Source: Parerythrobacter lutipelagi
GTDB lineage: Bacteria; Pseudomonadota; Alphaproteobacteria; Sphingomonadales; Sphingomonadaceae
Direction of reading: 5' to 3'
Length of the DNA: 64,000 nucleotides
NCBI RefSeq assembly: GCF_005434975.1
Contig: NZ_SKCJ01000001.1
Location: 1,126,001-1,190,000, forward strand
Both the position numbers and the translations under genes were made by a program. Of this stretch, positions 46,327 through 64,000 are shown piece by piece; the first letter of the stretch is position 1, and each line of letters opens with the position of its first letter. The notes beneath the pieces are model-generated. The model was not told the origin of the DNA, searched no databases, and saw only the letters and a list, made by a program, of their open reading frames with translations.

Positions 46327-47592
46327 TTATTCTTCCGTAGCTTCCTCAGTATCGGCAACGCCTGTGTCTGATTTTTCGGGCAATGCCGCGAGCTTGACGA
46401 TTTCCAGCTGATCGACTGTTCCGCGCAAGGCGGAGCGACCGGACCATGCGCGGGCCTGAATGCCGATGCTCATGAAACCGCATCCGGCGGGCGCGGCTCC
46501 GACCTCGAACACCTTTACGCCGCGCACAAAGCGCTCATCGAAGAACGGCGTGCCCGATCCAGCGCAACGCAGCTGCAATCGAACATCGCGAATTTGGTCC
46601 GCCGGCATGATGCGGTGACCTATCTTGACCCCAAATCTCCCGGAGGGCGTTCGGATCAACCGTTCGGCAATGAGCCCCCCCTCGCCGCTCCGGACATATA
46701 TATCCAGCTGGCCTTCGCGGCGCGATTCCTGCGCGCGAAGTCCGCGGTCGTCAGCCAATTTCCAGTCAAACGGGGCAAAGTCGCTGGCCCAATCGATCGG
46801 GCCCGCTCCGCCACTTGCCGCCTGTTTGCCGGAAGATATCTGGAACAGTCGATAGGCACGGTCTGTCCGATTGTTCTGTGCCAACCCTGCGATGAGACGG
46901 CGCTCGAACTCGTCCGATCCCACATCGGCGCGCTCCCGCAAGTCGGCCAAGGCTGGCAGGGCATCCGGCTTGCGTACGGCAAAATCCAGAAAGTCATTGT
47001 GCCAGCCGGCACTGCCATCGAGAATTTCGCCAAGTACCGGCAGGGCAGCTTGCTGTTCAAGCGCACGCATCAGCACAGGGAACAATGCGGCTTCCTGTTC
47101 CGGGTGAACCTTCAGCAGGCGGTCGAGCGTTCCGAGCGACCCCGAATAGTCACCAGCCTTGACCTGTTCTTCGAGTATGAGGCCTTGCAGCAGCAAGTCG
47201 CGGCGATTGATCCGCGTTGCCGCAGCAAGGATCCGCGCCCGGCTCTCTGCATTGCTTTCTGCAAGCGCCAGAATTGCATGGGCCTTGGGAGTGAGAGGCT
47301 CGGACCGGAAGGCATCGAGCGCCAGCGAAGACGCCGCTTGCGCCGAAGGCACGACATCGTCCTGGGTCTCTACGCCGCCCATCAATGTGCGCGCTGCGAG
47401 CTGTTCTTGCGACAAGCCATTCTGGATCGGCAACCAGGCCGCCACTTGCGGTGCCTTCAGCGAGCTGAAGCTACTGAGGGCCTGAACAAACAGGACCCCT
47501 GACAAGACCAGCCCGAAGGCAAGCGCCGCTATGAAGCGAACCGGCTCAGCAATGCTGAAAACGGACTTATGAGCGCGCCGCGTCCGTCGCAT
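46327..47592 (-). CDS. Anchored, TPR-like protein of the polysaccharide locus (unknown function)
   Basis: This protein of about 421 residues has a basic N-terminus, one membrane helix (FIAALAFGLVLSGVLFVQAL), a long helical region suggestive of TPR-like repeats (LAALTRI-type helices such as RRDLLLQGLILEEQVKAGDYSGSL, read in order), and a C-terminal beta-rich part with paired Cys. No domain is recognised. The start at ATG 47592 is supported by GGAG six bases upstream; it overlaps the 3' end of the Wzc-type gene by 26 bases. Its helix-anchor layout and coupling to Wza-Wzc suggest a structural or length-control role in export. Confidence 0.72.
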   Translation of the reverse strand: MRRTRRAHKSVFSIAEPVRFIAALAFGLVLSGVLFVQALSSFSSLKAPQVAAWLPIQNGLSQEQLAARTLMGGVETQDDVVPSAQAASSLALDAFRSEPLTPKAHAILALAESNAESRARILAAATRINRRDLLLQGLILEEQVKAGDYSGSLGTLDRLLKVHPEQEAALFPVLMRALEQQAALPVLGEILDGSAGWHNDFLDFAVRKPDALPALADLRERADVGSDEFERRLIAGLAQNNRTDRAYRLFQISSGKQAASGGAGPIDWASDFAPFDWKLADDRGLRAQESRREGQLDIYVRSGEGGLIAERLIRTPSGRFGVKIGHRIMPADQIRDVRLQLRCAGSGTPFFDERFVRGVKVFEVGAAPAGCGFMSIGIQARAWSGRSALRGTVDQLEIVKLAALPEKSDTGVADTEEATEE

Positions 47593-49745: not shown

Positions 49746-50456
49746 TCAGTTAATGGCGCGATCGATCAGGATCGCGCTGGTCGACAACAGCGGGATGAAC
49801 TGAAGAATGTTTTCAAGGTTGCGCCGCGAGGGCGAGTCCCCGACCGTTACGATATCACCCGGATAAATCACCGGATCAGGATAATTTCCCCGCTGGATGC
49901 CTTCGATATTGAACACGCCGATATAGCGTTGGCCGCCGACGTTGCGCATCACCAGCACATCGTCAGACTTGGCATATTCATCCAGTCCGCCGGCGTTGTT
50001 GATCGCGCGGATCAGTGTTTGCGAAGTTGCGGAAGGATAGGTCCCGGGCTGCACGACCTCGCCGCCGATCGAAATCGAAGGGACCGGTAATTCAGCGGGC
50101 CGGACGCGCACTTGCGGATTGACGATATACTCGCCGCGCAACCGGTCAGCGATCATGACGGCTATCTGGTTCGGAGTCTTGCCTCCGACATAAAGATCAC
50201 CAACGAGCGGGAATGCAATGTAACCTTCGGAATCCGTAAGATACGTGCCGCCCAGAGGTTCGGCATCCAGAACCGTGACTTCGATCCGCTCCTGGGGGCC
50301 CACAGTATAAGCCTGTGTCCCGCTCGACGCAGGGAGTTCCGACAGTTGAACCACCTGAATGTCAGGCGAAAGGCCAACCGACCGGTCCTTTGTGCAGGCG
50401 GCAAGCGTCAACGCTGCCGCAAGGGCCAGACTCAATCTTAATGCAATTCCTGTCAT
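49746..50456 (-). CDS. Wza-type polysaccharide export lipoprotein
   Basis: This protein of about 236 residues has a lipobox signal (LALAAALTLAAC). The Poly_export domain follows (AYTVGPQERIEVTVLDAEPLGGTY), then SLBB-like beta-grasp repeats (PSISIGGEVVQPGTYPS, GGLDEYAKSDDVLVMR). It is expected to form the outer-membrane channel for the polymer together with the Wzc-type protein. I use ATG 50456 (MTGIALRLSL) because GAAGG lies 5 bases upstream and it places the signal peptide at the N-terminus; in-frame ATGs at 50468 and 50495 are alternatives. It lacks the C-terminal amphipathic helix region of E. coli Wza, as is usual for the short family. Confidence 0.92.
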   Translation of the reverse strand: MTGIALRLSLALAAALTLAACTKDRSVGLSPDIQVVQLSELPASSGTQAYTVGPQERIEVTVLDAEPLGGTYLTDSEGYIAFPLVGDLYVGGKTPNQIAVMIADRLRGEYIVNPQVRVRPAELPVPSISIGGEVVQPGTYPSATSQTLIRAINNAGGLDEYAKSDDVLVMRNVGGQRYIGVFNIEGIQRGNYPDPVIYPGDIVTVGDSPSRRNLENILQFIPLLSTSAILIDRAIN

Positions 50457-50590
50457 CGGACCCTTCATTTGCCGAACCGGGGTGGCCTTAACCATCGACC
50501 GACCATAAGCAAAGCTGTTTGTGCTGACAATCCGGTGCCCCGTCCATGGCATGGCTCAAGGACGGCAAATGGAGCCTTTCCGGAGAATGC

Positions 50591-51985
50591 CTAAGTCGCG
50601 CCGCGATAGGTCGCCCGCTCGAATGCGAAAACCGCAACCAACCACACCGCAACCAACTGAAACAGCGGCGCGCGCAGTGGATAGTCGGCCAGGCTTGCGA
50701 ACAGAACGATAGTTCCCAACGCGAGCCACAGAAGCAATCGCCCCAGTCCGGCCTCTCCGCCGCCTACAACCACCATTATCGAGCGCACGACCCATGCGAT
50801 CAGCGCAAAGACGAGGGCCAGCGCCGGAAGACCCCCTTCGATCACCAGCTGCGCCCAGTCGTTGTGCGCCATGTTGACGTAAGAGGCGAACATCAGCGTA
50901 TCTGGCTCGTGAATGTGATAGACTTCTTCCCAAGATCCGAACCCGCTGCCCAAAAGCCCATAGGTCCACGCCATTTCGCGCAATGTCGGCAACAAGCCCC
51001 AGCGCAAATCCTCGAATGTGCCCCCAGCAGTCAGGCGTTCGAATGCCGGGATGCTGCCGGCAAGCGCGAACAGGGCGACCATGGCGGCCAAGGCGCCGAC
51101 AGCGATCGCCAGAATGATCGCCGGACTGAGCACGCGGGAAGATTTTTCGAGTTCTTTCTGGCGGCCGCGCTTGGACCGCCGCAGCTCGAGCCAGAGCAAG
51201 GCGAGACTGGTCGCCAGCGCCAAGGCCGCTGTCAGCAGCCCTGCTCTCGAGGCCCCGATAAGGGCAGCAAACAGGATCATCACGTAAAGAATGCCGAAAC
51301 CGATACGGGGCAAACTGCCGTGGAAGCTGAATTCGGGAACCGTCGCGCAGTAGGCAATCAGAACCAGTGTGAGCGACGAAAGCACCGCAGCGTGGTTGTG
51401 ATTGGCAAACAGGCCCACCGGAGATCCGAAATTGGTGACTTCATAGAAATAGAGCGGGCCGGAATTGGCACTGATGACCTGCAGCAACCCCGCGGCGGCA
51501 TTGATGCTGCCGATGGCAATTATCAGCAGGAACAGCGTTCGCTTGGAAGCGCCTGTCGCAGCGACCAGAAGCAGCGCGGCTATCGGCACGACCAGACTGG
51601 CGAGCGCATTGAGGGTGCGGGCCGGCACCATGGATATCGGGCGCCAGACATCGCTCGCTCCCAAAGCTGCGCCGATCTCGGCAATCGGCTCCCGCCCGGG
51701 CAAAAGTTGCCACAGCGCGGGGGGCAGCGGGACCAGCTGGAGTGCCATCCACAGCGCGAGCGCGCACAGCAGCAGTATCGGCGTTCGGATGTCGCGCAGT
51801 TTTTCGCGGTCGATCCAGTAGATGGCCGGGATCAGGAAAAGTCCGGCAAGAGGACGCAGCGCAACCGTCTGAATCGCGTCGGGCCGAGAGCTGCCGCCGA
51901 GCGCAGCGACGACAGCCGCGAAAAGCATAAGGATGACCCAACCGTGACGTTTTGCGGCAGGGTTTTCACTGCGGATTATTCTCAT
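50591..51985 (-). CDS. O-antigen ligase/Wzy-type polymerase
   Basis: This 464-residue membrane protein has about twelve hydrophobic segments and a large periplasmic loop between two of the late ones. The loop contains GLLGSGFGSWEEVYHIHEPDTLMFASYVNMAHNDWAQLVIEGG in family order, including the conserved AHNDWAQ/H-x-D motif typical of Wzy_C/O-antigen ligase proteins. In this setting it is more likely the polymerase of the exported polysaccharide than a lipopolysaccharide ligase. It is upstream of the Wza-type gene and divergent from the dehydrogenase gene across a 225-base spacer (51986-52210) that must carry both promoters. Confidence 0.9.
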   Translation of the reverse strand: MRIIRSENPAAKRHGWVILMLFAAVVAALGGSSRPDAIQTVALRPLAGLFLIPAIYWIDREKLRDIRTPILLLCALALWMALQLVPLPPALWQLLPGREPIAEIGAALGASDVWRPISMVPARTLNALASLVVPIAALLLVAATGASKRTLFLLIIAIGSINAAAGLLQVISANSGPLYFYEVTNFGSPVGLFANHNHAAVLSSLTLVLIAYCATVPEFSFHGSLPRIGFGILYVMILFAALIGASRAGLLTAALALATSLALLWLELRRSKRGRQKELEKSSRVLSPAIILAIAVGALAAMVALFALAGSIPAFERLTAGGTFEDLRWGLLPTLREMAWTYGLLGSGFGSWEEVYHIHEPDTLMFASYVNMAHNDWAQLVIEGGLPALALVFALIAWVVRSIMVVVGGGEAGLGRLLLWLALGTIVLFASLADYPLRAPLFQLVAVWLVAVFAFERATYRGAT

Positions 51986-52210: not shown

Positions 52211-53488
52211 ATGGACATTTCGGGAAAGACGATTGCGGTAATCGGCCTAGGCTATGTCGGGCTGCCGGTCGCCGTTGAGTTCGGCAAGAAACGCAAGGTC
52301 GTCGGCTTCGATATTCGAGCCAACCGCGTGGCGGACCTTTCGCGCGGGATCGACGAGACCCTGGAAGTCGAGCCGGAGGATCTGGCTGCGGCCAGCAAGC
52401 TCACCTTCAGCTGCGATCCGGCGGATCTAAACGAGTGCGATGTGTTCATCGTCACCGTCCCCACCCCGATCGACGACGCCAACCGGCCCGACCTCACCCC
52501 TCTGGTCAAGGCTTCTGAAACCGTCGGATCTGCGCTCAAGCAGGGGGCGGTCGTGATTTACGAATCGACCGTATACCCCGGCGCAACACGCGAAGTGTGC
52601 GTCCCTGTGCTGGAGCGCGTGTCAGGGCTGGTGCACAACAAGGACTTCTTCACCGGCTACAGTCCAGAGCGGATCAACCCTGGCGACAAGGAGCGCCGTC
52701 TGGCGACCATCGTCAAGGTCACCAGCGGGTCGACCCCGGAAGTGGCCGAAGCGGTCGACGCGCTCTATGCCGAGGTGGTCACCGCCGGCACGCATATGAC
52801 CAGCTCGATCGAAGTCGCCGAAGCGGCCAAGGTGATCGAGAACACCCAGCGAGACGTCAACATCGCGCTGATCAACGAACTGGCCATCCTGTTCGACAAG
52901 CTCGGTCTCGACACGCGTGACGTGCTCGAAGCGGCCGGGACAAAGTGGAACTTCCTGCCCTTCACGCCAGGCCTCGTCGGGGGGCACTGCATCGGTGTCG
53001 ATCCCTATTATCTGACGCATCGCGCGCAGCAGGTGGGCCATCATCCCGAGGTCATTCTTGCCGGGCGGCGGGTAAACGATGCGATGAGCACTTATCTGGC
53101 CGACCGGGTCGTACACCTGATGCTCAAGCGCCGGATTGCCGTGGCCGATGCCCGCGTTTTGGTCATGGGGCTGACCTTCAAGGAAAACTGCCCTGACCTG
53201 CGCAATTCCAAGGTCGCCGGCGTGATCGACCGATTGCAGGAATTCAATGCCGAGGTCGATGTCTGGGACCCGTGGATCGATGCGGCAGAAGCCGAGCGCG
53301 AATTCGGCATCCGTCCGCTGGCAGAAGCCCCGGCGGAGGGCACCTATGACGCGGTCATCCTTGCAGTTGGCCATCATCAGTTCGCTGAAATGGGCGCCAA
53401 GCAAGTCCGCACGCTGCACAAGGATACCGGTGTCTTCTTCGATGCCAAGGGCCTGTTCGGCCGCGACGAGAGCGACGGACGGTTGTGA
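52211..53488 (+). CDS. UDP-N-acetyl-hexosamine 6-dehydrogenase (TviB/WbpO type)
   Basis: This 425-residue NAD-dependent enzyme oxidises a UDP-HexNAc to the corresponding uronic acid (UDP-GalNAcA or UDP-GlcNAcA). The nucleotide motif IAVIGLGYVGLPVAVEFG is at the N-terminus. The catalytic Cys is in TPGLVGGHCIGVDPYYLTHRAQ, and SSIEVAEAAKVIENTQRDVNIALINE carries the conserved Lys/Asn residues. It is closer to TviB/WbpO than to UDP-glucose dehydrogenases. It opens the plus-strand biosynthetic genes and overlaps the next gene by GTGA. Confidence 0.93.
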   Translation: MDISGKTIAVIGLGYVGLPVAVEFGKKRKVVGFDIRANRVADLSRGIDETLEVEPEDLAAASKLTFSCDPADLNECDVFIVTVPTPIDDANRPDLTPLVKASETVGSALKQGAVVIYESTVYPGATREVCVPVLERVSGLVHNKDFFTGYSPERINPGDKERRLATIVKVTSGSTPEVAEAVDALYAEVVTAGTHMTSSIEVAEAAKVIENTQRDVNIALINELAILFDKLGLDTRDVLEAAGTKWNFLPFTPGLVGGHCIGVDPYYLTHRAQQVGHHPEVILAGRRVNDAMSTYLADRVVHLMLKRRIAVADARVLVMGLTFKENCPDLRNSKVAGVIDRLQEFNAEVDVWDPWIDAAEAEREFGIRPLAEAPAEGTYDAVILAVGHHQFAEMGAKQVRTLHKDTGVFFDAKGLFGRDESDGRL

Positions 53489-54507
53489 CCATCCGGGCGG
53501 TCCTGCTCAACGATACGCGGATCGACCGCCACCACGGCTGCACCAGCGTTGTTGCCACGATCGACACTCTGTGCGCAGCCAATGATATCGAAATTGTTGC
53601 GCGCAGCACTGCGCATAGCGACTGGCGGGCCAATCCGGCGGTCGCTGCAGCATTCGAGAGCGCGGACTGCGTGATCGTCAATGGCGAAGGCACAATCCAT
53701 CACGACCGGCCTGCGGGGCAAATTCTGCTCGAGGCCGGACCCCGCGCCAAAGACCATGGCAAAATGGCGTTTCTCGTCAATTCGACCTGGCAAGCGAACT
53801 CGGCGGAAAGCCTGAAAAAGCTTCAGGCGTTCGATATTGTCAGCGTGAGAGAAAGCGCCAGTGAGGCGGAGCTGAACGGGCTTGGCTTCGCGCCGAGGCG
53901 GATACCCGATCTGGCGCTATATCACCGGCCCAGCACGGCGGAAGCCCGTGACGGCATCGCCTATTGCGACAGCGTCCAGGGGCCGAAGGCTCTGGCCCTC
54001 TATCGCAGGATGTGGGCTCTGGGCGCAGACCCGCTTCCGATTGTGCAGCTGTCCCGCCGGCCGATCGAACTGCTGCGCTGGCTCAAGCGATACGATCCTA
54101 GCATCTCAGCCCTCCTGCGCCCCGCGCATGCCCGAGACGCACTGCGCGCGACGGTACAGGATTTGAACAGGCAAATCGCCAATCGCGATGAATTTACTGC
54201 CCGGGTCGCGGCCAGCGAGCTCATTGTAACCGGGCGGTTTCACATGATGATCTTTGCGCTTGGCGCCATGACGCCCCTGCTCGCGCTCGGATCGAACACG
54301 CACAAGATCGAAGCGACCCTGCGCGATGCGGGTCTGGAACCGTGGCGTGCCATTGCCGATGCCGCAGAGCTTGATGACGACTTGCTCACCCGCGCTGCTC
54401 GCTGGCATGGCGAGGAGCGGGAAAACCTTGCGCGTTTTGTCGCGCAAGGGCGTGCCGCCATGGAGCAACTGTTCGCTGATATCGCGGCACAGACGCGCAG
54501 TGGCTGA
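53485..54507 (+). CDS. Polysaccharide pyruvyl transferase family protein
   Basis: This 340-residue protein belongs to the CsaB/PssM-type pyruvyl transferase family, which transfers pyruvate from phosphoenolpyruvate to sugar hydroxyls as a ketal. Matching features include the N-terminal LLNDTRIDRHHGCTSV, ADCVIVNGEGTIHHDR, and the late TGRFHMMIFALGAMTPLLALGSNTHKI, with the conserved Arg-Phe-His. It starts with GTG at 53485, overlapping the dehydrogenase stop. It would add an acidic pyruvyl group to the polymer. Confidence 0.85.
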   Translation: MTIRAVLLNDTRIDRHHGCTSVVATIDTLCAANDIEIVARSTAHSDWRANPAVAAAFESADCVIVNGEGTIHHDRPAGQILLEAGPRAKDHGKMAFLVNSTWQANSAESLKKLQAFDIVSVRESASEAELNGLGFAPRRIPDLALYHRPSTAEARDGIAYCDSVQGPKALALYRRMWALGADPLPIVQLSRRPIELLRWLKRYDPSISALLRPAHARDALRATVQDLNRQIANRDEFTARVAASELIVTGRFHMMIFALGAMTPLLALGSNTHKIEATLRDAGLEPWRAIADAAELDDDLLTRAARWHGEERENLARFVAQGRAAMEQLFADIAAQTRSG

Positions 54508-55915
54508 AACGCGCAGCCTCGACCCTGTGGTCGACGCGACCGCGCTTACGACGCTCGCAGTGTCGGACGTGATGGATCCATTGTGGAAGCTGGAGCTGGC
54601 AGGTTGGTCGGCAATGTCCTTCACCGGCGGCCAGACCCGGCCGTCAAGGCTTGCCACGGTGCTGAAGCATCTGATCGCGAGCGTAATCGCCATTTTGACG
54701 CTCATCTGGCTCAGCCTGCGCCACCGCGGAACATCGGCTAGCGAGGCCCGTGCGCTCTTCAGCGAGGCCAATTCCGTGTTCGCATTGCATGGCGAGAATA
54801 GCACGCGCACGCGCCATTTGCGTTCAGCCTTGGCCGAAGCAAAGCTGGCATCGAAGACAGTCTTGTTGCTGGGACGGCCAACATCCGGCACGGCCACTGC
54901 TGCCAGGGCGCTGGATCCCGATAATACGCTCGGCAAAGCGCGCTTTGTCAGGCCTGTAACACTTGGAAGCGTTTTCGCCGGACTTCCAGAAGCCATTCGG
55001 TTGCTTGCGAGGGGAGCAGGCGAAGTGTCCCGGTTTCGCGGACCGATTGCGTTTCGTGCCCTGCTCGCAATCGATTTTCGCATGGCATTGGGTTCGGCGC
55101 ACGCATGCTGGTGGCGCAAGGCGGCGACAGGTCTGCCGGTCAACAGTGCGTTGTTTGCCCACACCGGCACTGCAGACACGTCTCAGCTTGAACAGGCAAT
55201 GCACGCACAAAGCACGCGAACCGTGCATCTGGTCCATGGGACCAATATCGGATGGGCCTTCGCCGGCATGTCCGATGTGGCGGTTTACCCCAGTGGTGCG
55301 GACGCGCGGCTAGGCGCGAAGCTGCCCGCTTATGGCCGCTGCATGCACCTTCCGCTTGAGCGTCCAGCGGTCGCGGCGGGCAATGGCGACTGGGCTTTGC
55401 TGACTTCCTATACGCACCTCCAGAATCCCAGCTTTGCCAAGCTTGGTTCGCGCCCCGATTGCGAACTCGTCGAATGGGTGCGCGCAGTAGCTGATTCGCA
55501 TGGGCAGGATCCCGCGCGGGTTCTTTGGCGTCCTCATCCGCAGATTGATCTGGTGCCCGACAACGAACGCGAGCGTCTGGAGCAGGCCGTGTCCGAGGCC
55601 GGTTTCACGCGCTGGCCTGCTGACCTGCCATACGCGGCACTGGGTGAATTTTCCGTCGCTGTCTCGGCACCTTCAACGGTGCTGACCGATGGCCTGCGGC
55701 TTGGCCAGCCGGTGATCATTGCAAGCCTGACACCGTTCCAGCGCGACGCGCTCTATGCATCGCACCCCTTGCTGATCGAGAGTGTCACAGGATTGCACGA
55801 GGCCATAGCGCAGGTAACAAATCCGAAACTGCGCCAAGAGGCATTCGTTAAAGCGTGGCGCGCGATCGAACCGGGCGACCGGTTGCAGATCGGGCCACTT
55901 TTGGCGCAGATTTAA
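54500..55915 (+). CDS. GT-B-like protein of the polysaccharide locus (function unknown)
   Basis: This protein of about 471 residues starts at GTG 54500, overlapping the previous gene by 8 bases. The C-terminal half looks like a GT-B/CDP-glycerol-transferase-type fold, with ARVLWRPHPQIDLVPD followed by VAVSAPSTVLTDGLRLGQPVIIA, a pattern for a nucleotide- or sugar-phosphate-binding site. The N-terminal half has a hydrophobic helix (HLIASVIAILTLIWLSL) and no known motif. It may transfer a sugar or an alditol phosphate, but this is inference. Its stop overlaps the stop of the convergent acyltransferase by 4 bases. Confidence 0.7.
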   Translation: MAETRSLDPVVDATALTTLAVSDVMDPLWKLELAGWSAMSFTGGQTRPSRLATVLKHLIASVIAILTLIWLSLRHRGTSASEARALFSEANSVFALHGENSTRTRHLRSALAEAKLASKTVLLLGRPTSGTATAARALDPDNTLGKARFVRPVTLGSVFAGLPEAIRLLARGAGEVSRFRGPIAFRALLAIDFRMALGSAHACWWRKAATGLPVNSALFAHTGTADTSQLEQAMHAQSTRTVHLVHGTNIGWAFAGMSDVAVYPSGADARLGAKLPAYGRCMHLPLERPAVAAGNGDWALLTSYTHLQNPSFAKLGSRPDCELVEWVRAVADSHGQDPARVLWRPHPQIDLVPDNERERLEQAVSEAGFTRWPADLPYAALGEFSVAVSAPSTVLTDGLRLGQPVIIASLTPFQRDALYASHPLLIESVTGLHEAIAQVTNPKLRQEAFVKAWRAIEPGDRLQIGPLLAQI

Positions 55916-57063
55916 GGGACCAGTGCCGGCCCCGGATCGCGCCGCTGCGACCCGAATCGGATCAGTGGTTGCTCGAACAGCTTCCACGAAACAAGCCCGG
56001 CAATATAGGTCAGCGCCGACGCAATCAGGAATCCGCCCCAGAAGCCAAGACCGATCCAGAACCTGGCATCCACCAGCAGGACTGCCTCGATCACGAAGAG
56101 GTGGAAAAGATACATGAAATAGGACACCAGTCCCACGCTGGCGAAGAATGAGACCACCCCGTTGTCCCGTGGCTCCAACCGCGCCAGAGCCGCGACCCAC
56201 AAGGCTGCGAACAACCCAAAGATCAGATAGCCGACCGTCGCGATGAATGGCGGATACCAGGTGGCAAACCGGAACGCGATGATTGTTCCGATCGTCAGCA
56301 GACCGTACATCAGAGCGGCGCGCGGTATCGCCAACAAGCGATCAAACTTACCTATTGCCGCGAGCGCTCCAAGAGCAATGGCGTCGATCCGCGCCGGCGG
56401 GAATATGCCGATCATCCCCTCTTCCCAGCCAAGCCCGAGGGCGAGCCAGAATCGCAAGGGAATCGACAGGACTACCAGCGTCGCCAGCACCAGGCCGAAA
56501 CGCGGCCATGCTTTCCACGCGAGCAGGCCGAGCAGGATGTAGGCGCTGACTTCGACCGACAGGGACCACGTGATCGTGAATGGAACCAAGGCTTCCCCCT
56601 GGATCGGCTGGAGATACCCGGTCAGGAACAGCAACGGTTTCCACATATTGGCAAAATTGCGCCCGTCGTTCGTCGCCAGGTCAGCCAGGGCAAAAGTTGC
56701 CACGGCCACGACAAAGATCGGCACGATGCGGAAAAAACGCTTGCGAAAGAACAGGGCAATATCGCGCCGGTTCTTCTCTTTCGACAGGATCAACCCGACT
56801 AGAAACCCGCTCAGCGCGAAGAACAGGTCGACCCCCATCCAGCCAATAACGCGCAACGTGCGGCCCACCGGATCGCCCTCGAGCGGCGCGAAACGATAGG
56901 ATGTATGGTAGGCGATGACGAGCAGCACGCCGAGCGCGCGGATTGCGTCAAGATAGGCCAGCCTGTTCTTGAATGAGCTTCCGGAGGACAATGGAGGTGC
57001 GACGCCTATTTTCTTTTGGCGCGACCTCGAATGCGTTTCTACCCGTATATTCTTCGGCGTCAA
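55912..57063 (-). CDS. Acyltransferase family 3 (OafA/YrhL-type) membrane protein
   Basis: This 383-residue protein has about ten membrane segments. The family motifs include RLAYLDAIRALGVLLVIAYHTSYRF with the conserved His, and GWMGVDLFFALSGFLVGLIL, the classic AT3 signature. The family O-acetylates polysaccharides. It is encoded against the surrounding plus-strand genes, next to the EpsG-like gene in the same direction (22-base gap). Confidence 0.92.
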   Translation of the reverse strand: MTPKNIRVETHSRSRQKKIGVAPPLSSGSSFKNRLAYLDAIRALGVLLVIAYHTSYRFAPLEGDPVGRTLRVIGWMGVDLFFALSGFLVGLILSKEKNRRDIALFFRKRFFRIVPIFVVAVATFALADLATNDGRNFANMWKPLLFLTGYLQPIQGEALVPFTITWSLSVEVSAYILLGLLAWKAWPRFGLVLATLVVLSIPLRFWLALGLGWEEGMIGIFPPARIDAIALGALAAIGKFDRLLAIPRAALMYGLLTIGTIIAFRFATWYPPFIATVGYLIFGLFAALWVAALARLEPRDNGVVSFFASVGLVSYFMYLFHLFVIEAVLLVDARFWIGLGFWGGFLIASALTYIAGLVSWKLFEQPLIRFGSQRRDPGPALVP

Positions 57064-57085
57064 ACGCGATATCTATGTCATTGAA

Positions 57086-58162
57086 TTAAGGCAGAACTCC
57101 GATTTCCAGTTCCCACGGCTCAAGAAAAAGCGCGTTTCCATATGGGATGTGGCCCGCCGACGAGTTGGCGAACATCAACCAGAAAACCATGATTGCGAAC
57201 ATCGTTCCGGCAATGAACAGGCGGGCCGGCCGGGCCAGCCATGGCTGGACGATCGACGGTAATGTCGCCCAGACCCACATCGACATGGGGAACCAGTAGA
57301 GCGTTATCCGTCCTGCCGCCGCTGAGGCAAATGGCACCAGCAATGCAGTTGCTATGGCGGCAAATGCTATGTTGCGCAGCAAAGGGGTGGGGAACAGCAC
57401 GGAACGATATTTCGGGAGCAGAAAATAGAGCGATGCAGGGATTGCGTTCAATGCAACATGGTAGAACGCGCCGCTCGATTGTGTGTATTCATTCTGCCCT
57501 TCGCCGTAGGACTGGTTATAATAGTCGCCGAAACCCGATTGCTGCAGAATGTAAATCGCCAAGAGGCCGAAAACCGCAATCCCGCCAAATTTGATTGCTC
57601 GTGGGAGTTTGAGATCAATCGCGACAAAAGCGAGGAATACGACCGCGCTCGCATGAAATCCGGCAATGAGTACGATCAGTCCCGCACGCACCGGTAGCGA
57701 CAAACGCGACCAGTATGCCATCACCAACATTATGAGACCGGCGGCGAGTGCTTGCCGGTTCGCGCTCATTGAAACAACGACAATGAACATCGGCAAGGCA
57801 CCGGCCAGTGCCAACCAAGGCTCCGGAGTACGGCGCGCGAAGGCAAACACGCCGAGCATGACTGCACAAGTGGAAATGAAATTGACCACATACATGCCGC
57901 CGCCGGTCCAATTGCCGAAGGCCAGCAGCAGCGCGTAAAACGGTTCGCTGACGGAAAGCGCCTGTGCCATATCCCTTGCGGTATCCACCGAATGGATCAT
58001 GCGCAGGTAATTGTTCCAGTCCATGCCGACATGGTGCCGCAGCCCGACAAACAGAACCGTGATAAGAAACAGAGCCGCCCAGGGAATCGTCGCCGGCTTG
58101 CCCGGTCTCCCTAAAGAGGCTGCGCCAGCATATATTCCGCCAAAAACAAGGAAAGGCCACAT
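57086..58162 (-). CDS. EpsG-family membrane protein
   Basis: This 358-residue protein has about ten hydrophobic segments. The EpsG signature is in LFVGLRHHVGMDWNNYLRMI, and further on VVSMSANRQALAAGLIMLVMAYWS, which contains the conserved R-Q pair. EpsG proteins are thought to polymerise or export capsular/biofilm polysaccharide. With the Wzy-type gene at 50.6-52.0 kb this makes two polymerase candidates in one locus. The 163-base gap to the next gene (58163-58325) holds nothing I can name beyond possible divergent promoters. Confidence 0.85.
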   Translation of the reverse strand: MWPFLVFGGIYAGAASLGRPGKPATIPWAALFLITVLFVGLRHHVGMDWNNYLRMIHSVDTARDMAQALSVSEPFYALLLAFGNWTGGGMYVVNFISTCAVMLGVFAFARRTPEPWLALAGALPMFIVVVSMSANRQALAAGLIMLVMAYWSRLSLPVRAGLIVLIAGFHASAVVFLAFVAIDLKLPRAIKFGGIAVFGLLAIYILQQSGFGDYYNQSYGEGQNEYTQSSGAFYHVALNAIPASLYFLLPKYRSVLFPTPLLRNIAFAAIATALLVPFASAAAGRITLYWFPMSMWVWATLPSIVQPWLARPARLFIAGTMFAIMVFWLMFANSSAGHIPYGNALFLEPWELEIGVLP

Positions 58163-58325
58163 TTGGCGCGTCGCTCCGATGCGTGGTTGTCTCGCTGGGT
58201 CAGATGCCGTATCGGCCCTTCGCCAGCAAGGGCGTAATCGTGGTGCCCCGCATTAGCGATGCCTTGCGTGATGTCAAAGACGCTGCCCTGACGCTCTGTC
58301 TGGCCGGACCGGGAACACGAGACAG

Positions 58326-59063
58326 ATGAAATTTCGCCTTATCGTAGCGCTGTTGCTTGTACCGTTCCCGAGCATCATCAAAAAGGCCATCTATCGTCTG
58401 CTATTCGGTTATCGTTTCGGGCGCGGGGTAAAGATCGGCCTCAGCGCGATCGTGGCAGACAAATGCGTTATTGGCGAGCAGACACGGATCGGCCACTTCA
58501 ACATTCTTTATCGCACAAAGGACCTGAGGATCGGCTCTAGAGTGATCATCGGTTTCGGTAATCGCATCCTTGGGGGCGACCTGGTCGAGATCGGCGACAG
58601 AAGTCAGATTTTCCGGTTTAACGAGATCAATTCGATCCTCGATCCACTGGTGCTCGGTGAATGCGATCCCGTGCTGAAGGTCGGAGCAGGCTCGGTCATC
58701 ACAGTGAACCACAAGATCGACTTTACCGACCGGGTGGAATTCGGCGAAAACGTCGTCTTCGCGGGACGCAATTCGAATATCTGGACGCACAACCGCCAGA
58801 AATCCGGCCCGGTGACCATCGGACGCAACTGTTATGTCGGCGCGAATGTGCAATTCATCGCCAACACCTCGGTTGGTGAATATTGCGTCATTGGCCTCGG
58901 CTCGGTCATTACCAAACGGATCGAAGGCGACTGGGCGATCGTCGCCGGCATGCCGGCCAAATACGTCAAACCTCTCGATGAAAACAACAAGGTGCTGGTT
59001 ACCTATCCGACGCGTCCAGATCTCGAGCCTGCAAGCCCGGGCAGCGAGCGCATTTCGGGCTGA
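58326..59063 (+). CDS. Left-handed beta-helix acyltransferase
   Basis: This 245-residue protein has a short hydrophobic N-terminus (LIVALLLVPFPSIIKKA) and hexapeptide repeats of the LbH fold (VKIGLSAIVADKCVIGEQTRIG, VTIGRNCYVGANVQFIANTSVGEYCVIGLGSVITKRI). The family acetylates sugars, usually with acetyl-CoA. A catalytic His may be that in WTHNRQ or in the FNILYR region; I cannot fix it. It begins a plus-strand run with the GT4 transferase (3-base gap) and the methyltransferase. Confidence 0.88.
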   Translation: MKFRLIVALLLVPFPSIIKKAIYRLLFGYRFGRGVKIGLSAIVADKCVIGEQTRIGHFNILYRTKDLRIGSRVIIGFGNRILGGDLVEIGDRSQIFRFNEINSILDPLVLGECDPVLKVGAGSVITVNHKIDFTDRVEFGENVVFAGRNSNIWTHNRQKSGPVTIGRNCYVGANVQFIANTSVGEYCVIGLGSVITKRIEGDWAIVAGMPAKYVKPLDENNKVLVTYPTRPDLEPASPGSERISG

Positions 59064-59066
59064 GCA

Positions 59067-60179
59067 ATGAAGCTGTTGTTCGCGATCAAAGGGCTGGTGG
59101 TTTCGGGCGGCGGAGCGGAGCGCGTCTTCGTCGACGTTGTCAATGCGTTGCGCGCGCGCGGACATGAAATTCTTGTCGCGACTTTCGATCCCGTCGGCGA
59201 ATCGTTCTTCTATGATCTCGATCCTGCGATCCCGATCCATTCGCTCGGTCACAGCGGCCCCGCTCAGCCGACGCGTGCAGCGGAACTTCCCGGGATCATG
59301 CGCAAGGTCCGCAATCTCGTCCGCAGCGAAGCACCGGACGCTGTGGTTGCCTTCATGCATTCGACCTTCGTGCCGGTCGGGCTTGGCTTGCTCGGTACCA
59401 GCGTGCCCTTCATCGCAAGCGAGCACACTGATGGCATCCACTACGAAGGCCGACGGGTGCAAAAATTGTTGCGCGACACCATTTTCGCGCGCTCGGACGC
59501 CATTACCATCCCGTCAGAGGCGTCGCGGCTGGCCCAGCCGGAGCGGTGGCAGGGCCGGATGCATGCCATCCCCAACGCGATCGACTTCGATGCGTTGAGC
59601 GCGCGAGCCGGAGATAGTCGGCGGGAACCGGTCATCCTGTCGGTCGGGCGCCTGATGGCAGAGAAAGACTACCCGACACTGATCCGCGCCTTTGCGCTGG
59701 TTGCAGGCGAATTTCCCGATTGGCGGTTGCGCATTGCAGGTGACGGACACCTGCGCGGCAAGATCGAAGCCGAGATGTCTCGCAGCGGCTACGGAGACCG
59801 GATCGATTTGCTCGGCTACGTTCGTGATACACCGGCCGAGTATGCCCGCGCTTCGATTTTCGCGATTTCATCGCTGTATGAGTCTTTCGGGCTTGTGACG
59901 GCGGAAGCGCTTGCTACAGGCTGCCCGGCGGTGGGCTTTGCCGATTGCCTTGGCACGGCGCAGCTCATCCGGCACGAGGAAAACGGGCTGTTGGTCGATC
60001 CCGGCGAAAACCGGGTCGAAGCGCTGGCCGGTGCCTTGCGGCGACTTATGGCCGATCCCCCGCTACGGGAGACGCTAGGTGCTGCGGGGCCGGAATCGGT
60101 CAGGGAATACTCCCTCACCTCCGTTGCGGACAAATGGGAAAACATGCTGTCAGAAATCATCCAAGGGGGCCGCGCGTGA
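59067..60179 (+). CDS. GT4-family glycosyltransferase
   Basis: This 370-residue GT-B glycosyltransferase starts MKLLFAIKGLVVSGGGAERVFVDV. The donor-binding half has ILSVGRLMAEKDYPTLIRAF and the EX7E-like motif SIFAISSLYESFGLVTAEALATGCPAV. It would add one sugar to the lipid-linked repeat unit in the cytoplasm. The stop overlaps the GTG start of the methyltransferase (GTGA at 60176-60179). Confidence 0.95.
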   Translation: MKLLFAIKGLVVSGGGAERVFVDVVNALRARGHEILVATFDPVGESFFYDLDPAIPIHSLGHSGPAQPTRAAELPGIMRKVRNLVRSEAPDAVVAFMHSTFVPVGLGLLGTSVPFIASEHTDGIHYEGRRVQKLLRDTIFARSDAITIPSEASRLAQPERWQGRMHAIPNAIDFDALSARAGDSRREPVILSVGRLMAEKDYPTLIRAFALVAGEFPDWRLRIAGDGHLRGKIEAEMSRSGYGDRIDLLGYVRDTPAEYARASIFAISSLYESFGLVTAEALATGCPAVGFADCLGTAQLIRHEENGLLVDPGENRVEALAGALRRLMADPPLRETLGAAGPESVREYSLTSVADKWENMLSEIIQGGRA

Positions 60180-61015
60180 GCCAGTCCAGTTCCAATGTCG
60201 ACCCGCGCACGGTGGACTCGTTCGGCCACGAGTGGTCGAGCCACGACCAGTCGGACCTTTCAGCGGAAGAAAAGCAGCAGATCTTCTCGGACTATTTCTC
60301 GCAATTCCCGTGGGACAGTCTGCCGGACAAATCCGAGGGATTCGACATGGGGTGCGGATCCGGTCGATGGGCCAGTGTGACCGCGCCTCGCGTGGGCACG
60401 CTCAACTGCATCGATGCTGCAGCTGAGGCGCTCAAGGTGGCACAGCGCAATCTGGCCGATATGCCGAATGTCCGTTTCCATCATGCAACGACCGACACCG
60501 CGCCGCTGGAGAACGGTAGTCAGGATTTTGGCTATTCGCTCGGTGTCCTGCATCATATTCCGGATACGCAGTCTGCCTTGGCGGATTGCACGCGGCTGCT
60601 GAAGCCCGGCGCTCCGTTCCTCCTTTACCTCTATTACCGGTTCGATAACCGTCCGGCATGGTTCCGCGCGGTCTGGAAGACGAGCGAAGTCTTGCGCAGC
60701 GGTATTTCGCGGATGCCGGCAGGCTTGAAGAACGCCGCAACCGATATTGCGGCGGCAAGTATCTACTTCCCGCTGGCCCGCGGCGCGGCGGCGGCGGAAA
60801 AGCTCGGTGCGAAGGTCGAAAGTTTCCCGCTCGCCTATTACCGCGACAAGAGCTTCCTCACCATGCGGACGGACAGTCGCGATCGGTTCGGCACCCCGCT
60901 TGAACAACGCTTTACGAGGCAGGAAATCACCGCGATGATGACAGCCTGCGGTCTCGAGAACATCACGTTCTCGGATAATATGCCGTATTGGGTTGCTGTC
61001 GGCACCAAGGCCTGA
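60176..61015 (+). CDS. Class I SAM-dependent methyltransferase
   Basis: This protein of about 279 residues starts with GTG at 60176. The SAM-binding motif I is EGFDMGCGSGRWASVTAP, with an acidic residue after the next strand (LNCIDAAAEALKVA), and motif III-like DFGYSLGVLHHIPDTQSALADC. It could methylate a sugar hydroxyl or carboxyl of the repeat unit. No membrane segment. It precedes the sialidase-like gene by 18 bases. Confidence 0.9.
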   Translation: MSQSSSNVDPRTVDSFGHEWSSHDQSDLSAEEKQQIFSDYFSQFPWDSLPDKSEGFDMGCGSGRWASVTAPRVGTLNCIDAAAEALKVAQRNLADMPNVRFHHATTDTAPLENGSQDFGYSLGVLHHIPDTQSALADCTRLLKPGAPFLLYLYYRFDNRPAWFRAVWKTSEVLRSGISRMPAGLKNAATDIAAASIYFPLARGAAAAEKLGAKVESFPLAYYRDKSFLTMRTDSRDRFGTPLEQRFTRQEITAMMTACGLENITFSDNMPYWVAVGTKA

Positions 61016-61033
61016 GGCCGGCGAAGGCGCGGC

Positions 61034-62395
61034 ATGTCAGCCCAGCGCTCCAGAACGCGCCGCATCCTGCGACCGGCAGTGCGCCTGGCTTTGATCGCGT
61101 TCTTGGCCCTGCTCGCCTTCGTATTCTGGTATGTGCTTGTTGCGGCAAGCCGGCCCCCCGTCGTCAACCAGGAAGGCGTCCGTCCCCACGCTGCACCGCG
61201 CCTGACTGCGGTGGAGATCCGCGACTTGCCAATGCAATGCCGATTGGTCGCGAGCGGCGGCGAATTGAATGATCTCGGCCGCCTGCCACATCGCAATCAC
61301 GTTTACCTCGCGAAGCACGATGGTCTCTATTTCGCGATGTTCAGCTATTGGTACGGGTCGGAAGACCAGCCTGGCGGAGTGGTGCGATATGCGACCTCAC
61401 GCGATGGAAAGACTTGGAGTGAGCCGGACAAGCTCTCCGATCCTGCGCCGGAACACGGAATCATCGCCCGCGGCTTTGTTAAGCGCGGCGGGAAGCTCTA
61501 CGCTTGGTACGCGACACACACGGGCGACACATTCTTTCGCAATGGCAAAGAATTTTCCAATTCCGCGGAGTATGAAAGCGACCGCAATATTGCGATTCTC
61601 GAAAGTGAATGGCTGGGACCGGACGAGGGCTGGCAATTCAGCCGAGTTGTTCTCGAGGGTTATCTCAACAACTATGCGCCGCGCAGCTTTGGCGGCAAGT
61701 CCTTCATGGCGCTGCGAGATCAGGACCGTCAAACCTATCTCGCGACCAGCGAAGATGACGGGCTGACCTGGCAAATCGGCGACGCGATGCCCGTGCCCGC
61801 TGTGCCCACTCAAGGTGACGCTGGACTCTATCTGGCGGACGAACCGGTCGTGATCGGCAATGACCAAAGCACGACAAACGTACTGCTGCGCAACAACAAC
61901 ACAGCTGATGGCCGGCTCTGGGCGACTTCCGTCATCGACGAGCGGTGGCAGGAACCTTTCCCGCTCGATTTCCCGTCCGACGCGAGCAAATTCGTCCCAC
62001 TCGACCTGGCCGACGGATCGGCGGCTTTGGTGGGAAATTTTGAGCCGGACGTGCACCGCGCGCTGCTGCATCTTGCGGTGAGCGAAGACAGCGGCACGAC
62101 CTATGGCAAGCTGTACCGGCTGGCTTTGGAAGGGCAGTACAGCGAATTCGTCTGGCGATCGCCGCAATATCCACATGCGCTCGTCGACGGGGGTGAGCTC
62201 TTGCTCGCCTTCGCTTATGGCAAGCGCGATATCGCGGTCTGCTCGGCACCGGCAGACGCCGGGAAGCTCGATCAGCAGGCGGGAATTTCTCTCGTCCCGC
62301 GTTTGTTCAAAGGCCTGTGCAACAGGAACATGCCCCGCTATCTGCGGCTCGCAGCGGGACACGCCGGTTGCCGCGAACATTTCGTCTGGGGCTGA
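61034..62395 (+). CDS. Membrane-anchored sialidase-like beta-propeller protein
   Basis: This 453-residue protein has a basic N-terminus and one anchor helix (RLALIAFLALLAFVFWYVLVAAS). The extracytoplasmic part carries three Asp-box-like motifs SRDGKTW (122-128), SEDDGLTW (239-246) and SEDSGTTY (350-357), typical of sialidase/BNR propellers. No complete Arg triad can be confirmed by eye, so it could be a hydrolase, a lyase or a binding protein. Its place in the polysaccharide gene run suggests it trims or binds the polymer. Confidence 0.78.
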   Translation: MSAQRSRTRRILRPAVRLALIAFLALLAFVFWYVLVAASRPPVVNQEGVRPHAAPRLTAVEIRDLPMQCRLVASGGELNDLGRLPHRNHVYLAKHDGLYFAMFSYWYGSEDQPGGVVRYATSRDGKTWSEPDKLSDPAPEHGIIARGFVKRGGKLYAWYATHTGDTFFRNGKEFSNSAEYESDRNIAILESEWLGPDEGWQFSRVVLEGYLNNYAPRSFGGKSFMALRDQDRQTYLATSEDDGLTWQIGDAMPVPAVPTQGDAGLYLADEPVVIGNDQSTTNVLLRNNNTADGRLWATSVIDERWQEPFPLDFPSDASKFVPLDLADGSAALVGNFEPDVHRALLHLAVSEDSGTTYGKLYRLALEGQYSEFVWRSPQYPHALVDGGELLLAFAYGKRDIAVCSAPADAGKLDQQAGISLVPRLFKGLCNRNMPRYLRLAAGHAGCREHFVWG

Positions 62396-62403
62396 ACTAA
62401 ATC

Positions 62404-64000
62404 ATGTGCGGATTGGCAGGTTTTCTCGGCTTCGGAGCGACGGACGGCGACCCTCGCTCAGCGCTAGAGACGATGTCTCGGGCGATCATGCATCGCGGTC
62501 CGGACGCCGAAGGTTTCTGGCTCGATGCAGAGGCTCAGGTCGCGCTCGGCCATCTGCGCCTGTCGATCATCGATCTCACGCCGGCCGGGTCGCAGCCGAT
62601 GCATTCGCAGGATGGCCGCTGGACGATGGCGTTCAACGGCGAGATCTACAATTATACTCAGCTTCGCGCCGATCTCGAGTCGCGCCACGGGGTGATCGAG
62701 TGGCGCGGCCATTCGGATAGCGAAGTCCTGCTCGAAGGGTTTGCGCGTGACGGGGTCCAGGCAGTTCTGGACAAGATCGACGGCATGTTCGCCATTGCGC
62801 TGTTCGACCGGCAGACGCGAAAGCTCACTTTGATCCGTGATGCTTTCGGCGAAAAACCGCTCTATTACGGCATCTGGCACGGCAGCTTGCTGTTCGCTTC
62901 GGAACTGAAGGCGTTCGAAGCATTGCCTGGCTTCGCTCCGGAAATGGACCTCGATGCGCTGGGCGATTTCTTCAAATATTCCTATGTTCCCGGTCCGAAG
63001 TCGATCTGGCAGGGGATAGCCAAATTGCCGCCGGGGCAAAGCGTCTCCGTTACGCTCGACGATGTCCGTTCGGGGAAAACACCTGCGCCGTCTGCCTGGT
63101 GGGATCCGGTTGCCGATGCTTTGTCAGCGCGGGCAGATATGTTCGACGGCTCGCTCGAGGACGCGCGGCTGGCGGGAGACGCGCTGCTGCTGGAATCCAC
63201 CCGGCGGCGTATGGTGTCGGACGTGCCGCTTGGCGCTTTTCTCTCCGGCGGGGTCGACAGTTCGATGACCGTGGCGCTGATGCAGGCGGCAGCATCGGGC
63301 CCGGTGCGCACATTCTCGATCGGGATGGACGAGGACGGCTTCGACGAATCGCCTGCGGCACGGGCAGTCGCGCAGCACCTCGGGACCGATCACACCGAGC
63401 TGGTCCTCTCTCCCGCTGAAGCGCAGGACGCTATTCCGCTGATATCCGGCATCCACGACGAACCCTTTGCGGATTCGAGCCAGGTCCCGACATTCCTGGT
63501 TTCACGCATGGCCCGCGAACATGTGACGGTCGCCCTGTCGGGAGATGGCGGCGATGAGATTTTCGGCGGGTACAATCGCTATTTCACCGGACCAAAGGTT
63601 TGGAACCGGGTTTCGAAGTTTCCAACCGCTATGCGCAAAGCTATCGGCGGGACCTTGGCAGCATTGCCATCGGGGCTGGTCGAGAGCGCAGGACGGTTTA
63701 TTCCCGGCGAGCTGGCCGCAGGTCGGGCAGGAGAGAAAGTCCAGAAGCTGGCGCGGGTCATTGCGACTGAAGACGAGGCCGCTTTCCACGACCGTTTGCT
63801 CGCAACCTCCGATACCCCGCAAGACCTTCTGACGCAAGACGTCGCGCTGTCACGCCTGTCGCAGCGGCAGGACCCGCGCGCCGCGTCACTCGATTTCGCC
63901 CATCGCGCGATGCTGGTCGACACGATGAACTACATGCCGGACGATGTTCTGGTGAAGGTCGATCGGGCCGCCATGGCAGTCGCGCTGGAAACCCGCACAC
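62404..64000 (+). CDS. AsnB-type glutamine-dependent amidotransferase (C-terminus beyond the window)
   Basis: This frame is open from ATG 62404 to the last base (about 532 residues seen). The class II glutaminase nucleophile is Cys2 (MCGLAGFLGF). The HRGPDAEG and MAFNGEIYNY motifs follow. The synthetase domain has the PP-loop PLGAFLSGGVDSSMTVALM and VALSGDGGDEIFGGYNRYF. In polysaccharide loci such proteins often amidate sugar carboxyls (as proposed for WbpS/WbtH) rather than making asparagine. The HexNAc dehydrogenase at 52.2 kb would supply a suitable uronic acid. Confidence 0.93.
   Translation, partial: MCGLAGFLGFGATDGDPRSALETMSRAIMHRGPDAEGFWLDAEAQVALGHLRLSIIDLTPAGSQPMHSQDGRWTMAFNGEIYNYTQLRADLESRHGVIEWRGHSDSEVLLEGFARDGVQAVLDKIDGMFAIALFDRQTRKLTLIRDAFGEKPLYYGIWHGSLLFASELKAFEALPGFAPEMDLDALGDFFKYSYVPGPKSIWQGIAKLPPGQSVSVTLDDVRSGKTPAPSAWWDPVADALSARADMFDGSLEDARLAGDALLLESTRRRMVSDVPLGAFLSGGVDSSMTVALMQAAASGPVRTFSIGMDEDGFDESPAARAVAQHLGTDHTELVLSPAEAQDAIPLISGIHDEPFADSSQVPTFLVSRMAREHVTVALSGDGGDEIFGGYNRYFTGPKVWNRVSKFPTAMRKAIGGTLAALPSGLVESAGRFIPGELAAGRAGEKVQKLARVIATEDEAAFHDRLLATSDTPQDLLTQDVALSRLSQRQDPRAASLDFAHRAMLVDTMNYMPDDVLVKVDRAAMAVALETRT

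Follow-up and report, generated by a model that had tools for sequence, protein, structure and literature searches.

A gene cluster of Parerythrobacter lutipelagi predicted to build a Kdo-containing Wzx/Wzy-type polysaccharide in a family in which LpxC was not found

The window analysed here is a 64,000-nucleotide stretch of the Parerythrobacter lutipelagi genome (G000:C1:1126001-1190000; genome G000, 3.1 Mb, two contigs), and its last part holds a polysaccharide gene cluster that is cut by the window end, with ~11.6 kb more, nearly half of the locus, lying downstream. Very probably, its product is a sugar polymer of the cell surface. We regard as probable that this is an acidic heteropolysaccharide made by the Wzx/Wzy pathway, whose repeat would contain 3-deoxy-D-manno-oct-2-ulosonic acid (Kdo), at least one N-acetylhexosamine (HexNAc) uronic acid, pyruvyl and acyl groups, and an amidation by an AsnB-type protein. 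The original prediction for this DNA was a HexNAc-uronamide polymer with pyruvyl groups, in which Kdo was missing. The predicted presence of Kdo in a Wzx/Wzy polymer of a family without LpxC matches is the stronger and less expected result, while the AsnB part is more ordinary, being in line with uronic acid amidation of a kind already described. If the prediction is true, Kdo is a polymer sugar in this family (Sphingomonadaceae), and there is a concrete polymer to purify; no description of a Kdo-containing polymer in a sphingomonad was found among the literature matches listed.

Kdo is best known from the lipopolysaccharide (LPS) of the outer membrane, and Kdo genes are often taken as a sign of LPS, which P. 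lutipelagi, however, appears unable to make. KdsA, which is single-copy in the genome, and KdsB and KdsD, the genes responsible for CMP-Kdo synthesis, lie in the downstream part of the locus. Profile searches found neither LpxC nor the WaaA/KdtA domain in the window's genome, and both profiles match the E. coli and Caulobacter controls. In a survey of the family, LpxC was found in 0 of 119 genomes and KdsA over the cut-off in 29 of them (three KdsA matches of 114-118 bits, below the cut-off of 314, were not counted). The Capsule_synth profile PF05159, of the KpsC/S type, matches in 25 of these 29, and the four genomes without it (G000, G015, G104 and G037) are exactly the four that carry the window's cluster (Fisher p 4e-5, for a hypothesis named after the data were seen). 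The KdsA-positive genomes of the family, none with LpxC, thus split into those with a KpsC/S-type match and those with this cluster. PF05159 was likewise not found in five further cluster genomes, reached through the protein encoded at 54500-55915 of the window, so that it matches in none of nine. Since there is no LpxC, WaaA or KpsC/S match, Kdo is predicted to enter this Wzx/Wzy-type polymer, and we think that it is the firmest of the polymer's predicted components. No known taker of CMP-Kdo other than this polymer was found in the window's genome, and the same likely holds for the other eight.

The case for Kdo is made by exclusion and stands or falls with the profiles, and several points weigh against it. 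PF05159 is not specific to KpsC/S, since E. coli and B. subtilis, taken as controls, match it too; 24 of its 25 matches reach at least 175 bits, but that of G081 only 43. The absence of LpxC, WaaA and KpsC/S is that of profile searches; for WaaA these covered the window's genome, and for LpxC four of the nine genomes with the cluster. A Kdo transferase of a different type, or a different use of Kdo, could have escaped them.

Kdo could also go to a glycolipid or serve as a single linker of the polymer, as in KpsC/S capsules, instead of entering each repeat. Kdo is described as the linker in group 2 and 3 capsules (PMC12887879), and the KpsC/S-type match in most KdsA-positive relatives points the same way. 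The KpsC/KpsS capsule loci of the related genomes share with the window's cluster KdsA, mostly with KdsB and KdsD beside it, and a family background without LpxC matches; they differ in the PF05159 match that is missing from the nine cluster genomes. Moreover, the Wzx, EpsG-type and phosphoglycosyltransferase genes of the cluster fit the Wzx/Wzy route, and the glycolipid or linker explanation appears unlikely.

As a separate observation, the frequency of PF05159 among the KdsA-positive relatives that lack LpxC (L075-L098) suggests that Kdo-linked capsules are common in the family.

The gene arrangement is not due to chance, since TviB, the pyruvyl transferase, AsnB, KdsD, KdsB and KdsA are present in all nine cluster regions, that of the window and eight others. 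Cluster genomes were defined by a good homolog (43-100%) of the 54500-55915 protein, and presence was scored as the best tblastn match in the fetched regions, which is not strict orthology. WecB and WecC of G015 and WecB of G037 lie beyond the fetched stretches; orthologs of Wzx, the phosphoglycosyltransferase and WecB/C were not found within 40 kb in G664, and G601 has no match to the hexapeptide acyltransferase in its fetched region. The genes of the locus are as follows (window positions first, then those beyond the window on G000:C1).

47567-49732, minus strand: Wzc-like chain-length determinant/tyrosine autokinase (TIGR01007, 143 bits, cut-off 108; TIGR01005, 187 bits, below its cut-off)
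49746-50552, minus strand: Wza-like polysaccharide export protein (TIGR03027, 64.5 bits, below the equivalog cut-off of 180)
50591-51985, minus strand: open reading frame (ORF) for a membrane protein, O-antigen-ligase/Wzy-like by eye only, with matches in the other cluster regions
52211-53488, plus strand: TviB/WbpO-type UDP-HexNAc 6-dehydrogenase (NCBIfam TviB, 569 bits, just below the cut-off of 592)
53485-54507, plus strand: polysaccharide pyruvyl transferase (Pfam PF04230, PS_pyruv_trans, 45.6 bits, cut-off 25.3)
54500-55915, plus strand: protein without annotation and candidate CMP-Kdo transferase; its start codon is uncertain
55912-57063, minus strand: acyltransferase-3 family membrane protein, a variable accessory gene (Pfam PF01757, 80 bits)
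57086-58162, minus strand: EpsG-family membrane protein, candidate Wzy polymerase (Pfam PF14897, 111 bits)
58326-59063, plus strand: hexapeptide-repeat acyltransferase (Pfam PF00132, 50 bits)
59067-60179, plus strand: GT4-type glycosyltransferase (NCBIfam PglH-like, 119.5 bits against an equivalog cut-off of 600)
60179-61015, plus strand: S-adenosylmethionine-dependent methyltransferase (Pfam PF08241, 65 bits; start uncertain)
61034-62395, plus strand: sialidase-like (BNR_2) protein with an N-terminal helix (Pfam PF13088, 59 bits), in four of the nine clusters
62404-64000, running on to G000:C1:1190356, plus strand: AsnB/WbqG-type glutamine amidotransferase of 650 residues (Pfam PF13522/PF13537/PF00733)
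1190308-1191672, beyond the window: Wzx (PF01943, above cut-off)
1191674-1192783, beyond the window: second acyltransferase
1192804-1193766, beyond the window: KdsD
1193782-1194906, beyond the window: second GT4
1194939-1195745, beyond the window: KdsB
1195857-1196711, beyond the window: KdsA
1196806-1198107, beyond the window: phosphoglycosyltransferase (polyprenyl glycosylphosphotransferase, 272 bits, slightly under the cut-off of 296)
1198127-1199140, beyond the window: epimerase
1199141-1200445, beyond the window, minus strand: WecC
1200516-1201634, beyond the window, minus strand: WecB

Profile searches confirmed the TviB-type dehydrogenase, the AsnB-type amidotransferase and the pyruvyl, acyl and methyl transferases named in the original prediction. 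Their description as one co-directional set does not hold, because the acyltransferase at 55912-57063 and the EpsG-type gene are on the minus strand, and the 54500-55915 and sialidase-like genes had not been mentioned. The locus contains the flippase, polymerase, phosphoglycosyltransferase and Wza/Wzc components of a Wzx/Wzy-dependent system; the PF01943, PF14897 and Wzc-like matches are over their cut-offs, the exceptions being the phosphoglycosyltransferase and the Wza-like protein. The Wzc-like gene has a match in the fetched regions of all eight other cluster genomes.

In the proposed pathway, the phosphoglycosyltransferase would start the repeat on the lipid carrier and the rest would be added by the two GT4 enzymes and probably by the 54500-55915 protein, which would use CMP-Kdo supplied by KdsD, KdsA and KdsB. 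TviB would provide UDP-GlcNAcA, the uronic acid of N-acetylglucosamine, and WecB/WecC the corresponding UDP-ManNAcA of N-acetylmannosamine. The AsnB-type protein would most likely convert one of the uronic acids to its amide, drawing the nitrogen from glutamine, and flipping, polymerisation and export would be carried out by Wzx and the EpsG-type polymerase together with Wza/Wzc.

The 54500-55915 protein is the best candidate for the Kdo transferase of the cluster, to judge from its sequence and its neighbours. It belongs to no Pfam or NCBIfam family at a threshold of 0.001, and no PDB entry is significantly related to it by sequence; when the thresholds were loosened, the ten homologs gave only three single-member Pfam matches to unrelated families (best E 0.023) and PDB matches with E of 0.4 and 0.6. 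The gene was found in one of 385 genomes of the class, the window's own, and in 11 of 397 genomes of the family. These 11 comprise nine good homologs (the window's own included), a distant one in G016 and a broken fragment in G516. All nine good homologs sit with KdsD, KdsB and KdsA.

The ten homologs all contain a (K/R)XHP motif followed by PS, with a conserved Ser 46 residues past the His (47 in G016). The motif is common to sialyltransferases and to the GT99 and GT107 Kdo transferases, and the Kdo transferase KrkA, which itself has Ser in place of K/R, has its motif His227 and phosphate-binding Ser271/272 44-45 residues apart (PMC12887879). With the retaining Kdo transferases KrkA (GT140), WbbB (GT99) and KpsC (GT107), the 54500-55915 protein has in common the CMP-binding motif, in the form described for GT99 and GT107, and a downstream Ser at a similar distance. 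In 20,000 shuffles of the protein, [KR]XHP arose in 8.6% and together with the following Ser in 2.5%, and the phosphoglycosyltransferase of the cluster also has one [KR]XHP; the motif in a single sequence thus means little, and it is its conservation in ten that counts.

Other features weigh against a Kdo transferase. QXXXD, with its nucleophilic Asp, is given for retaining Kdo transferases in the discussion of PMC12887879. In the ten homologs, it is not found at a conserved place up to 70 residues before the motif; five contain it, at differing positions, whereas four of four KpsS controls have it at -40. The 54500-55915 protein also has no detectable sequence homology to KrkA, WbbB or KpsC. 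Comparison of its family profile with that of KpsS was not significant (probability 1.7%, p 0.029), nor were those with the pyruvyl transferase (p 0.061) and with one of the cluster's GT4 families (p 0.24), and the AlphaFold2 single-sequence model has a mean predicted local distance difference test score (pLDDT) of 36.5. Perhaps the protein is an inverting enzyme, as sialyltransferases are, or no transferase at all.

These features leave some room for a GT4 or an unseen gene as the one that adds Kdo, with the 54500-55915 protein employed otherwise, for example together with the pyruvyl transferase. The pyruvyl transferase gene adjoins the 54500-55915 gene in all nine clusters and a relative of it does so in G016, giving such a neighbour in all ten loci. 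The (K/R)XHP motif and the following Ser near the KrkA spacing in ten of ten, and CMP-ulosonate genes nearby in both contexts, speak against this alternative, which we consider possible and not the favoured one.

The second context is that of G016, where the distant homolog lies beside a PseF-like protein (132 bits), part of which is a phosphatase of the KdsC type (97 bits), and a NeuB-like synthase (189 bits), all three matches being below their equivalog or subfamily cut-offs. The pyruvyl-transferase-like protein of G016 is 28% identical to that of the window and has no NCBIfam match. This context suggests that the CMP-ulosonate supply changes while the pair of 54500-type protein and pyruvyl transferase stays, and the unannotated protein may represent a new kind of transferase for CMP-linked ulosonic acids. 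A fuller proposal, which is tentative and rather doubtful as a whole, is that in this LpxC-less family the cluster makes a Wzx/Wzy polymer with Kdo, probably pyruvylated, and a HexNAc-uronamide, and that the 54500-55915 protein is the founding member of a new CMP-ulosonate transferase family, using CMP-Kdo here and a CMP-nonulosonate in the G016 relative. A 2026 paper describes itself as the first to investigate the enzymes by which Kdo is placed in the variable regions of capsules (PMC12887879).

The G016 locus (L205:9699-19309) contains TviB-like, epimerase, PseB-like dehydratase, PseF and KdsC-type fusion, NeuB-like and pyruvyl-transferase-like genes, and likely makes a nonulosonate polymer.

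The AsnB-type protein is nearer to the amidotransferases of O-antigen loci than to asparagine synthetase of the K-12 type by score. It scores 545 bits with WbqG of E. coli O121 (43% identity), 398 bits with the corresponding O35 protein (36%) and 159 bits with AsnB of E. coli K-12. It has the MCG start, with Cys2 of the glutaminase, and the SGGVDSS loop, and retains both the glutaminase and the synthetase domain. At the positions of DVTTIRAS and SGEGSDE in K-12 AsnB, the window protein and the O35 protein have DEPFADSS and SGDGGDE, and WbqG has CEPFADSS and SGDAGDE. Thr322, Thr323 and Arg325, which we take to be the aspartate-site residues of K-12 AsnB, are thus not kept. The XrtA/PEP-CTERM amidotransferase of the same genome has DEPFADAS and SGDGADE, so the motif parts the window protein from K-12 AsnB and not from other amidotransferases.

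The genome holds three full AsnB-type genes, that of the window, the XrtA/PEP-CTERM copy and a lasso-cyclase-like one, in addition to three short weak matches. None is of the K-12 type (159, 164 and 44 bits against K-12 AsnB). The possibility that the window gene is an asparagine synthetase and the sole copy is therefore not borne out, as far as could be tested: two more full genes exist, and the window copy is nearer to WbqG. It reaches 276 bits with NF006949 (asparagine synthase B; cut-off 499), which K-12 AsnB itself matches with 1050. The broad asparagine synthase model TIGR01536 is passed with 453 bits (cut-off 267); this model does not discriminate, because it is also passed by WbqG (460) and the O35 protein (439), as well as by the XrtA copy (492) and K-12 AsnB (510). 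Asparaginyl-tRNA synthetase was not found over the cut-off in the genome (79 bits against 342.6), which would fit with asparagine being formed on tRNA.

The window protein shares its fold family with the XrtA/PEP-CTERM amidotransferases (TIGR03108), but its 489 bits are under the cut-off of 816.9, as are the 528 bits of WbqG, whereas the XrtA copy passes with 947; that copy scores 348 bits with WbqG and 333 with the O35 protein. Neither the window nor the locus beyond it gave an exosortase match (best E 3.9), and there was none near 16 of 16 family relatives of the window AsnB, compared with a match in 21 of 21 XrtA loci.

A quick tree of 45 rows, chosen from 114 sequences and drawn up before the five later clusters were added, has the AsnB of the window's cluster on one side with both O-antigen proteins and the XrtA type on the other (SH-aLRT 94, not starred). 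The four clusters that it covers have AsnB proteins in a starred clade of their own. The larger FastTree, built from the 114 sequences, has a node that joins the window protein to both O-antigen proteins and leaves out the XrtA type (support 0.89, surrounding nodes 0.69 or lower). K-12 AsnB has a branch length of 7.65 in the 45-row tree and its position there is undecidable.

AsnB might also make free asparagine or amidate a target outside the polymer, and stand in the locus by chance. In the approximately unbiased (AU) test, a clade of the cluster proteins with K-12 AsnB is not rejected (p 0.82), with a likelihood better than that of the free quick tree. The retained domains and the TIGR01536 match also speak for this explanation, and 69 of 80 related loci have no sugar dehydrogenase in the fetched flank. 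Nevertheless, the aspartate-site residues are replaced, WbqG scores far above K-12 AsnB, TIGR01536 is passed by the O-antigen proteins too, and AsnB is in nine of nine clusters, which makes this explanation distinctly improbable.

Amidation in the polymer, with a uronic acid as the putative acceptor, is plausible. The uronamide was shown to depend on WbqG, and in P. gingivalis it was lost when the homolog was deleted (PMC7468200); GalNAcAN, the amide of the N-acetylgalactosamine uronic acid GalNAcA, is reported from the O35 and O121 O-antigens (PMC7555982). The uronamide part of the original prediction is favoured by the closeness of AsnB to WbqG and by its occurrence together with TviB in all nine clusters. 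A sugar dehydrogenase is in the fetched flank of seven of the 16 family relatives of the window AsnB and of none of 21 XrtA-type loci (p 0.001), and when the three cluster genomes among the seven are set aside the numbers are 4/13 and 0/21 (p 0.015). On the other side, a sugar dehydrogenase was seen in the fetched flanks of only 11 of the 80 AsnB loci taken from other genomes, although these flanks vary in extent (the shortest whole locus has 3.2 kb) and a missing dehydrogenase is no proof of absence. This frequency is not significantly above that of the XrtA loci (p 0.11), and the acceptor could differ. An AsnB gene among polysaccharide genes is not sufficient proof of a uronamide, and AsnB proteins of this class also occur where no HexNAcA pathway was seen nearby.

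The amidated carboxylate might also be that of Kdo or of another acid of the repeat, such as galacturonic acid or the pyruvyl group. AsnB occurs together with KdsD, KdsB and KdsA in every cluster, and the starred clade of the cluster AsnB proteins counts in its favour as well. TviB is, however, equally constant, and WbqG works in an O-antigen locus that contains TviB and no Kdo genes in the fetched stretches. This alternative is quite unlikely, and a HexNAc-uronic acid is the preferred acceptor.

The E. coli O121 and O35 O-antigen loci resemble the window's locus in combining TviB and an AsnB-type protein with Wzx and Wzy. The window TviB is 62% identical to that of O121 and 58% to that of O35, and WbqG matches the same NCBIfam profile as the window AsnB. 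The O121/O35 stretches read contain no Kdo genes, and the epimerase (annotated there as NAD-dependent epimerase/dehydratase) is only 27-28% identical to that of the window's locus.

The O121/O35 epimerases presumably act on UDP-HexNAcA. An epimerase that makes GalNAcA as in O121/O35 was considered for the cluster; at 27-28% identity, compared with 48% to the epimerase of G016, the case is weak. By sequence, the nearest PDB entries are 5u4q (379 bits), named dTDP-glucose 4,6-dehydratase, and then 6zl6 (154 bits), which we take to be UDP-glucuronate 4-epimerase.

For the pyruvyl group there is a precedent in the marine bacterium Cobetia marina, whose exopolysaccharide is described as composed of ribose and 7,8-pyruvylated Kdo (PMC6801904); its other sugars differ from those predicted here. 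By analogy, pyruvylated Kdo in the polymer of the cluster is at most a reasonable guess.

The sialidase-like protein at 61034-62395 shows weak PDB matches to sialidases (E 2e-5), and in its AlphaFold2 single-sequence model (pLDDT 37.7) helix 8-39 is the sole well-predicted part. Within a Kdo locus, it is possibly a hydrolase acting on Kdo or another ulosonate. The methyltransferase at 60179-61015 has no match in the other eight clusters and is probably a strain-specific decoration enzyme.

For the 54500-type gene, a search of IMG/VR gave 10 pattern matches with none confirmed, and plasmids gave nothing. The fragment in G516 (G516:C1:2791376-2791870) has an internal stop and is likely a decayed relic; it was left out of the ten-sequence alignment (A2) and of the counts.

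The third AsnB paralog (G000:C2:292678-293697, minus strand) has the lasso-peptide cyclase as its best NCBIfam match (172 bits, under the cut-off of 525). Near it, HprK-like, sulfotransferase-like and 1078-residue permease/FG-GAP-like ORFs were read by eye, and a similar ORF of 1097 residues directly precedes TviB in G016.

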